Positions 17,215-21,651 of a stretch of 56,476 nt of DNA are shown in pieces. Source of the DNA: Candidatus Krumholzibacteriia bacterium (GTDB lineage Bacteria > Krumholzibacteriota > Krumholzibacteriia > JAJRXK01); contig DATFKK010000037.1 in assembly GCA_035268685.1 (NCBI GenBank), positions 1 through 56,476 of the forward strand, in the 5' to 3' direction. The notes beneath the pieces are model-generated. The model searched no databases and was not told the DNA's origin. It saw nothing but the letters and a program-made list of their open reading frames with translations. Positions within the stretch are counted from its first letter, which is position 1; every line of letters begins with the position of its first letter. The translations under genes were made by a program, and so were the position numbers.

Positions 17215-17895
17215 TCAGACGACGGGATCGGAGTCCACCACGCCGAGTTCCCGCCCCAGGGTCGGGACGTCGGCCACGACGACCCGGGCACCGGCGGTGA
17301 GCAGCCGGTCGGGGTCGTGCGATCCCCACCCGACGCCGACCGCTTCGGTCCCGGCGGAGAGGGCAGCGCCCACGTCGTGGATCGAATCGCCGACGACGAC
17401 GGTGGCCTCGGCGGGGACCCCCGCCTCGTCCATGGCCCGGAGGATCATGCCGGGATGCGGCTTGCTCGGCGCGTCGTCGGCGGTTTGCAGGGTCACGAAG
17501 TGCCGCTGCAGGTCGTGTTCCTCGATCACCGACAGCAGGCCGCGGCGCGACTTCCCCGTGGCGACACCGAGCAGGACGCCGCGGTCGAGCAGCCGGTCGA
17601 GCAGATCGCCGATCCCGTCGAAGAGGTGATCCCGGCCGTCCCGCTCCTGGGCCGCTACGTGCTCCTCGCGGTAGGACGTGATCAGGGCGTCGACCCGATC
17701 CGGAGGCAGACCGCCGATCAGGTCCTCGACGAAGGCCGACAGCGACAGCCCGACGCGCTCGCGCACGGCGTTCGCGGAGGGGACCGGCAGGCCCTGGCGG
17801 GCGAAGGCGCGCTGCACGTTCCGCACGATCGCGTGGTGGCTGTCGACGAGGGTGCCGTCGCAGTCGAAGACGACGAGGCGAGGGGCGGCGTGCAA
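17215..17895 (-). CDS. HAD-IA phosphatase, phosphoglycolate-phosphatase-like
   Basis: All HAD motifs are present: I FDCDGTLVDS (Asp nucleophile), II the Thr of VATGKS, III the Lys of SKPHPGM, and IV VGDSIHDVGAA. A helical cap sits between motifs I and II, as in Gph and PpaX. The protein removes phosphate from a small metabolite; the substrate cannot be read from sequence. An ATG at 17928 lies inside the 22-bp palindrome and has no ribosome-binding site. TTG 17895 has AGGAG about 11 bp upstream and starts close to the domain, so I prefer it (226 residues). Confidence 0.85.
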   Translation of the reverse strand: MHAAPRLVVFDCDGTLVDSHHAIVRNVQRAFARQGLPVPSANAVRERVGLSLSAFVEDLIGGLPPDRVDALITSYREEHVAAQERDGRDHLFDGIGDLLDRLLDRGVLLGVATGKSRRGLLSVIEEHDLQRHFVTLQTADDAPSKPHPGMILRAMDEAGVPAEATVVVGDSIHDVGAALSAGTEAVGVGWGSHDPDRLLTAGARVVVADVPTLGRELGVVDSDPVV

Positions 17896-17916
17896 GGTCC
17901 TGGAGCTCCTGGTTGG

Positions 17917-17938
17917 CCACGAATCCATGGATTCGTGG
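17917..17938. repeat. Perfect 22-bp palindrome, candidate operator
   Basis: The half-site CCACGAATCCA (17917-17927) is followed directly by its exact reverse complement (17928-17938). A third copy of the inner motif, ATTCGTGG, occurs at 17943-17950, 12 bp after the copy at 17931-17938. It lies upstream of the HAD gene and about 300 bp from the divergent histone gene. The symmetry suggests a dimeric DNA-binding protein; the regulator is unknown. Confidence 0.6.
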
Positions 17939-18086: not shown

Positions 18087-18235
18087 CGCCCGCAGTGAGC
18101 ACAGGCGACGGTTCTCGCCGGGCAGGACCCGGTCCCCGACCGCGCCGCTCGCCCATCCCCGCGCGTGACGGGCCGGATCGTCCGGCCGGCGCCGAGGCCG
18201 ATCAAGGACGAAACGAAAGCCCAAGGAGGGTCACC

Positions 18236-18496
18236 ATGGCCAAGAAGGTCGCCAGGAAGAAGAAGACCGCCGCCAAGAAGAAGAAGACCGCCGCCCGCCG
18301 GAAGCCGGCGAAGCAGCAGGAGATGCTGCTGGTCGGCAGCAAGACCAAGGCGGCCCTGAAGGACCACGGTCTGAACGTCGCGGGCGATGCCCTGGACAGC
18401 CTGAACGCCGTGATCTACCAGTACATCGATCAGGCGGCGAAGCGCGCTTCGGCCAATGGTCGCAAGACCGTCCGCGGGCACGACTTCCACGTCTGA
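18236..18496 (+). CDS. Bacterial histone-fold protein with Lys/Arg-rich N-terminal tail
   Basis: The protein has 86 residues. Residues 1-29 are a basic tail of AKK/TAAKKKK/AARRKPAK character, like H1 or Hc1 tails. Residues 30-86 match a single histone fold: alpha1 LLVGSKTKAALKDHG, loop LNV, long alpha2 AGDALDSLNAVIYQYIDQAAKRASANG, loop RKTV, and a very short alpha3 ending at HDFHV. The GRKTV-x2-x-D element is the hallmark DNA-contact/L2 region of archaeal histones, and a truncated alpha3 is known in bacterial histones such as Bdellovibrio Bd0055. ATG 18236 has AAGGAGG at 18223-18229. It is probably a dimeric nucleoid protein. The tail-plus-fold combination is the notable point. Confidence 0.8.
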   Translation: MAKKVARKKKTAAKKKKTAARRKPAKQQEMLLVGSKTKAALKDHGLNVAGDALDSLNAVIYQYIDQAAKRASANGRKTVRGHDFHV

Positions 18497-18523
18497 GCCC
18501 GGGGCCAGACCGATGGTTCCGAG

Positions 18524-18547
18524 CGGCCGGAGCACGGGCTCCGGCCG
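18524..18547 (+). terminator. Terminator hairpin after the histone gene
   Basis: CGGCCGGAGC (18524-18533) and GCTCCGGCCG (18538-18547) make a perfect 10-bp stem with loop ACGG, 28 bp after the histone stop. This suggests the histone is a single-gene transcript. The downstream sequence has only a few T residues. Confidence 0.6.
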
Positions 18548-18636
18548 TTCGCGTATGGTCTTGGTGCGAGAGGGGCGACGGCGAGGTGCCGTGACTCCTC
18601 AAGTGTGATATCCATAGGGGCCGGAGGGCGCTCCCA

Positions 18637-18732: not shown

Positions 18733-20595
<1,863 letters not shown>

Positions 20596-20622
20596 CCCGA
20601 GCTCCGAGAGAGGACACCGACC

Positions 20623-21651
20623 ATGACGACGCAGAAGACCGACGCCCCCCAGAAGCTCACCAAGAAGGACTTCGCGAGCGATCAGGAAGTCCGCTGGTGC
20701 CCGGGTTGCGGGGACTACTCGATCCTGGCCCAGGTGCAGAAGACCCTGCCCGAGCTGGGGATCGCGCGCGAGAACATCGTCTTCATCAGCGGGATCGGCT
20801 GCAGCAGCCGCTTTCCGTACTACATGGAGACCTACGGTTTCCACAGCATCCACGGCCGGGCCATGACCCTGGCCTCGGGCGTGCGTCTGGCCAACCCGGA
20901 CCTGAGCGTGTGGGTGATCACCGGCGACGGCGACGGCCTGTCGATCGGTGGCAACCACTTCCTGCACACGCTGCGGCGCAACTTCGACCTCAACGTGATC
21001 CTGTTCAACAACCGGATCTACGGTCTGACGAAGGGCCAGTACTCGCCGACGAGTGAGCAGGGCAAGGTGACCAAGTCGACGCCCGACGGCGTGATCGACC
21101 ATCCGATCAACCCGGCCCACGCCGCGATCGCGGCCGAGGCCACCTGGGTGGGGCGCGCCTACGACACCGACACCAAGCACCTGCCCGGTCTGGTCGAGAA
21201 GATGGCCCAGCACAAGGGGATCTCGTTCCTCGAGGTCTTCCAGAACTGCAACATCTTCAACGACGGTGCCTTCGCCCACTTCACCAGCAAGGAGTTCCGC
21301 GAGGACCGGATCCTGCGCCTGGTGCCGGGCGAGCCGATGATCTTCGGCAAGGAGCGCGACAAGGGCATCGTGCTCGAGGGCCGCCACCCGAAGGTCGTGA
21401 AGCTGGGCGAGAACGGGATCAGCGCCGACGACCTGATGGTCTACGACGCCACCGATCGCAGTCTGGCCTACATGATCAGCAATCTGGACTACCCCGAGTA
21501 CCCGGTGCCGATGGGCGTTCTGCTCGACGTCGAGCGCCCGACCTACGAGGACCTGCTCGAGGACCAGGTGCAGAAGGCCCACGACCGTGTGGGCGGGCAG
21601 GGCGACCTGCAGGACCTGATCCGCGGTACCAACACCTGGACGGTGGAGTAG
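20623..21651 (+). CDS. korB: 2-oxoacid:ferredoxin oxidoreductase, TPP-binding beta subunit
   Basis: The protein has 342 residues. CPGCGDYSIL starts at residue 26, then GIGCSSRFPYYMETYGFHSIHGRAM, the thiamine-diphosphate motif GDGDGLSIGGNH (about residue 101) and NNRIYGLTKGQYSPTSEQG, all typical of KorB/PorB. The beta subunit carries TPP and a [4Fe-4S] cluster held by conserved Cys. It starts 27 bp after korA behind GAGAGAGGA. The 7Fe ferredoxin at 39202-39537 is one possible electron acceptor (inference). Confidence 0.94.
   Translation: MTTQKTDAPQKLTKKDFASDQEVRWCPGCGDYSILAQVQKTLPELGIARENIVFISGIGCSSRFPYYMETYGFHSIHGRAMTLASGVRLANPDLSVWVITGDGDGLSIGGNHFLHTLRRNFDLNVILFNNRIYGLTKGQYSPTSEQGKVTKSTPDGVIDHPINPAHAAIAAEATWVGRAYDTDTKHLPGLVEKMAQHKGISFLEVFQNCNIFNDGAFAHFTSKEFREDRILRLVPGEPMIFGKERDKGIVLEGRHPKVVKLGENGISADDLMVYDATDRSLAYMISNLDYPEYPVPMGVLLDVERPTYEDLLEDQVQKAHDRVGGQGDLQDLIRGTNTWTVE

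Follow-up and report, generated by a model that had tools for sequence, protein, structure and literature searches.

The window, a 56,476 nt stretch of contig DATFKK010000037.1, belongs to a draft genome (202 contigs) of Candidatus Krumholzibacteriota. An ORF on the plus strand at 18236–18496, where a sequence-only reading had placed a histone with a basic N-terminal tail, has the 86-residue product MAKKVARKKKTAAKKKKTAARRKPAKQQEMLLVGSKTKAALKDHGLNVAGDALDSLNAVIYQYIDQAAKRASANGRKTVRGHDFHV. The locus comprises the following features:

17215..17928, minus strand: divergent HAD-family phosphatase gene, a neighbour conserved in genomes G001 and G003
18223..18229, plus strand: Shine-Dalgarno sequence AAGGAGG
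18236..18496, plus strand: gene for a tailed FtF-type alpha3 histone of 86 aa, assigned from homology, AlphaFold2, Foldseek and conserved residues
18236..18322, plus strand: N-terminal tail (residues 1–29), predicted disordered from composition and AlphaFold2
18242..18304, plus strand: 21-nt direct repeats encoding the heptads KKVARKK / KTAAKKK / KTAARRK
18323..18493, plus strand: histone fold (residues 30–86) with alpha1 34–42, alpha2 50–73 and alpha3 81–84, from AlphaFold2 and Foldseek
18520..18551, plus strand: hairpin 3' of the gene (14-bp stem, 4-nt loop)
18733..21651, plus strand: 2-oxoacid:ferredoxin oxidoreductase alpha and beta genes, conserved as neighbours in G001 and G003

The start at ATG 18236 is firm because AAGGAGG lies 6 nt upstream, AAGGAG is invariant at this place in an upstream alignment of four family genomes, and the histone begins with MAKK or VAKK in the family's three other genomes (JAJDAC010000031, JAJRXK010000027 and JAOZPE010000002; Candidatus Krumholzibacteriota or Krumholzibacteriia). 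The strong ribosome-binding site described earlier is thus upheld, and the histone is indeed a gene of its own. A GTG start at 18095 (133 aa) was ruled out, as it lacks a ribosome-binding site and is absent from relatives.

A terminator had also been proposed; the hairpin is strong, and stems of 15 and 13 pairs lie 3' of the histone gene in G001 and G002, but a T run is absent, and the structure is probably a transcript end or a stabiliser. No conserved promoter emerged from a sigma-70 scan or the family upstream alignment. Codon adaptation of the histone gene (0.81) falls among the values of eight ribosomal protein genes (0.71–0.85) but ranks no higher than the 86th percentile among local gene fragments, so that good expression is plausible on codon usage. 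The corresponding values for HU are 0.62–0.65, which are rough as one HU start is mis-set. The palindrome noted near the gene does exist as a perfect 22-mer, CCACGAATCCATGGATTCGTGG at 17917–17938, the longest perfect palindrome in the window; it lies, however, about 300 nt upstream, overlapping the start of the divergent HAD gene, and is a possible operator.

Fold and class of the protein

Residues 30–86 form a single histone fold after the tail, on which homology searches, AlphaFold2 and Foldseek agree. The single-chain AlphaFold2 prediction, built with 49 homologues, places the three helices at a pLDDT of ~95, with alpha3 reduced to four residues, in keeping with the almost absent alpha3 noted from the letters alone. 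The fold part (57 residues) has a net charge of +3 and the whole protein a pI of 10.7. By phmmer, residues 27–84 match HLp of Leptospira perolatii (9QT0) with an E-value of 1e-10, compared with 9e-5 for HBb/Bd0055 and 0.0017 for archaeal HTkC; a four-sequence profile gave 7e-14, 1.4e-7 and 4.6e-5 respectively. The top Foldseek matches were 9QT1/9QT0 (TM 0.96–0.97 over the target, rmsd 0.6–0.7 Å), compared with TM 0.85–0.88 and rmsd 1.3–1.4 Å for HBb and TM 0.87 over the target for HTkC (9F2C). In all three comparisons the nearest known relative is therefore HLp and not Bd0055, the example named earlier.

The NCBIfam archaeal histone model (E 0.0058) and Pfam CBFD_NFYB_HMF (E 0.21, fold alone) scored below cut-off, which is a gap of these libraries. 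The matches to histones in phmmer and Foldseek rule out a non-histone family for residues 30–86, and matches to HemD, DUF7943 and a phage protease were noise. Nor is the ORF a chance one, given the phmmer score, 80 homologues, and a dN in the fold core (~0.15) well under dS (0.9–1.4).

Alpha3 histones have a histone fold with an alpha3 of only 3–4 residues (PMC11390915), as found here at 81–84 in place of the full alpha3 (~10 residues) of nucleosomal archaeal and eukaryotic histones. Within them, face-to-face (FtF) histones conserve R48, N52 and RxTxxxxD (HMM numbering), and the Arg/Asn pair ending alpha2 separates the tetrameric FtF histones from bacterial dimers (PMC11390915). The window protein has the whole signature (R70, N74, R76, T78 and D83), including the pair that dimers lack; R70, N74, R76 and D83 are invariant in 80/80 homologues, with R70 and N74 lying outside the sequence patterns used to find these homologues. 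R70 and N74 correspond to HLp R49 and N53, and the RD clamp R76–D83 is retained together with F84. Basic DNA-binding residues are present on alpha1 and after loop 2: HLp S14, K15, K17, K21 and R59, which supply 52% of its DNA-binding energy (PMC12701072), are S35, K36, K38, K42 and R80 here; the HLp contact residues T27, S52 and T61 are replaced by V48, A73 and H82. Judged by its sequence and predicted structure, the window protein clearly belongs to the FtF alpha3 histones already described.

HLp (9QT0–9QT2), which is tetrameric and wraps about 50–60 bp of DNA (PMC12701072), thus shares the fold, the truncated alpha3, the tetramer residues R49/N53/R55, the RD clamp and the five main DNA-binding residues with the window protein; it differs in the three replaced contacts, in its phylum and in the tail, which is far longer and Lys-rich in the window protein. 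The archaeal FtF histone HTkC shares the FtF signature and fold, and archaeal FtF histones are generally without tails (PMC11390915). HBb-like histones without the FtF Arg/Asn are present in other genomes of the same class (L016, L027 and L028), which thus contains both dimer and FtF types.

The basic tail, its repeats and its distribution

The 29-residue Lys/Arg/Ala-rich tail was correctly described: it holds 14 Lys/Arg (11 of them Lys) and one Glu, giving a net charge of +13, and is predicted to be disordered (pLDDT ~60). TRF reported a 21-nt period at 18250–18295 (2.2 copies, 96% matches), and a third, weaker copy was recognised by eye. All lysine codons of the gene (16/16) are AAG and tail third positions are 100% GC, so that the tail is no AT-rich read-through. 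Tails have been proposed to arise by reading-frame (start-codon) extension into upstream AT-rich DNA (PMC10919886); the repeats suggest that repeat growth may be another route to a tail. The same genome encodes an H1/AlgP-like protein of ~118 residues (L132:1071–1427; G000:C145, about 19070–19426) made nearly entirely of KKKTAAR/KKKTTAR heptads (21-nt period, 15.7 copies), the unit being as in the histone tail. Such low-complexity DNA converges, so that one may have arisen from the other or the two may have grown in parallel. HupS/HupB and H1/AlgP-like proteins resemble the histone in carrying a Lys/Ala-rich disordered tail on a DNA-binding protein, although their DNA-binding fold is unrelated or missing and the HupS/HupB tail is C-terminal.

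A tailed histone plus a second histone occurs in 4/4 genomes of the host family, the tails all being strongly basic and variable in length and sequence. The second histone of the host genome (G000:C157:18209–18382; L133) has 56 aa, no tail and the FtF residues. Its type is widespread in the class, where histones outside this family mostly have a short tail or none. A match was obtained in 47/80 genomes of the phylum, and loci outside it belong to Acidobacteriota, Planctomycetota, Myxococcota, Bdellovibrionota, Elusimicrobiota and one bin labelled Zetaproteobacteria; viral contigs yielded no relative. Among 80 loci, which were drawn from close relatives and are not a census, tails reach 15 residues or more with a net charge of at least +4 in 41 and 20 residues or more with at least +8 in 25, while most of the remainder have 5–13 residues with little charge; start codons were set by rule, which may make individual tail lengths inaccurate. 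Tail and fold combined are consequently not the unusual pairing that had been supposed, and Schwab et al. 2024 (PMC11390915) report that most bacterial FtF histones carry positively charged tails. That set shows the same arrangement of a basic, disordered N-terminal tail of unconserved sequence on an FtF fold, from which the window protein differs in the 21-nt repeats of its tail.

Tail state switches at least 13 times on a poorly resolved tree. Relatives L048 and L051–L056 (Planctomycetota, two unclassified) have folds 69–73% identical to that of the window protein and a tail of six residues with a net charge of −2; the tail was lost in them or never existed, which makes them natural tail-less controls. 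Identity to Acidobacteriota relatives reaches 82%; a recent transfer from that phylum is unsupported, a single Krumholzibacteriota clade not being rejected (p-AU 0.73) on a 57-column alignment that is too short to resolve such a transfer. Other nucleoid proteins of the host genome were searched family by family; HU is also there in two copies, making the histone one of several nucleoid proteins.

A tailed histone that may wrap DNA

We consider it probable, from sequence, model and analogy with HLp, that the window protein is an FtF alpha3 histone whose tetramer wraps DNA and whose tails add charge and compaction. Handshake dimers would form, two of them closing into a ring-like tetramer with about 50–60 bp of DNA around its outside, as in HLp. 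The four disordered tails of each tetramer, at about +13 each, would hold on to flanking or adjacent DNA electrostatically and so increase compaction; this role is extrapolated, because hardly any tail is visible in the HLp structure. Charge, rather than sequence, would be what is retained in the tail, whose length could change easily, in the host genome by growth of the 21-nt repeat.

It is unlikely that the protein acts as a dimer, bending or coating DNA in the manner of HBb/Bd0055 of Bdellovibrio bacteriovorus (8CMP, 8FVX) and leaving most compaction to the tail. The two proteins have the alpha3-truncated single fold and the RKTV loop in common and their similarity is significant, but HBb is a dimer without a long basic tail, and the contact residues R70 and N74, kept in all 80 relatives, are absent from such dimers (PMC11390915). 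We also doubt that the tail is a regulated platform on which Lys acetylation loosens DNA, as is reported for the Lys-rich C-terminal domain of HupS/HupB. HupS is acetylated and the deacetylase CobB1 affects its DNA affinity (PMC11229371), a precedent that the abundant tail lysines would suit; most Lys positions nevertheless vary between the four relatives, and the gene is not linked to any modifying enzyme.

That the tailed and second histones make mixed dimers or tetramers, in which the tailed variant alters local chromatin, seems similarly improbable: both genes accompany each other throughout the family and both host histones retain the R/N/RxTxxxxD residues, yet the fold parts are only 31–43% identical. 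Less likely still is a DNA-binding protein without a chromatin role, such as a regulator of the adjoining oxidoreductase genes. The neighbours kept in G001 and G003 would fit this, but the HAD and oxidoreductase genes were not found beside the histone gene in G002, there is no sign of a functional link between the oxidoreductase genes and the histone, and the residues with which HLp binds DNA regardless of its sequence are conserved across phyla. There is also a very slim chance that the host family has a two-histone chromatin, in which tailed and tail-less histones assemble into the same tetramers and compaction is set by acetylation of the tail; if true, this system would be an independent parallel to the tail regulation of eukaryotes.

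With the DNA-wrapping tetramer and compacting tails as the preferred reading, the window protein joins a family of histones known from many bacteria, in which tails are common. Tailed FtF histones are now extended to Krumholzibacteriota, which, like Acidobacteriota, is not named in the main text of PMC11390915. Krumholzibacteriota and their relatives in Acidobacteriota, Myxococcota, Bdellovibrionota, Elusimicrobiota and Planctomycetota present a series of tails from ~5 to 41 residues on nearly one fold, which makes the contribution of a basic histone tail directly testable outside eukaryotes.
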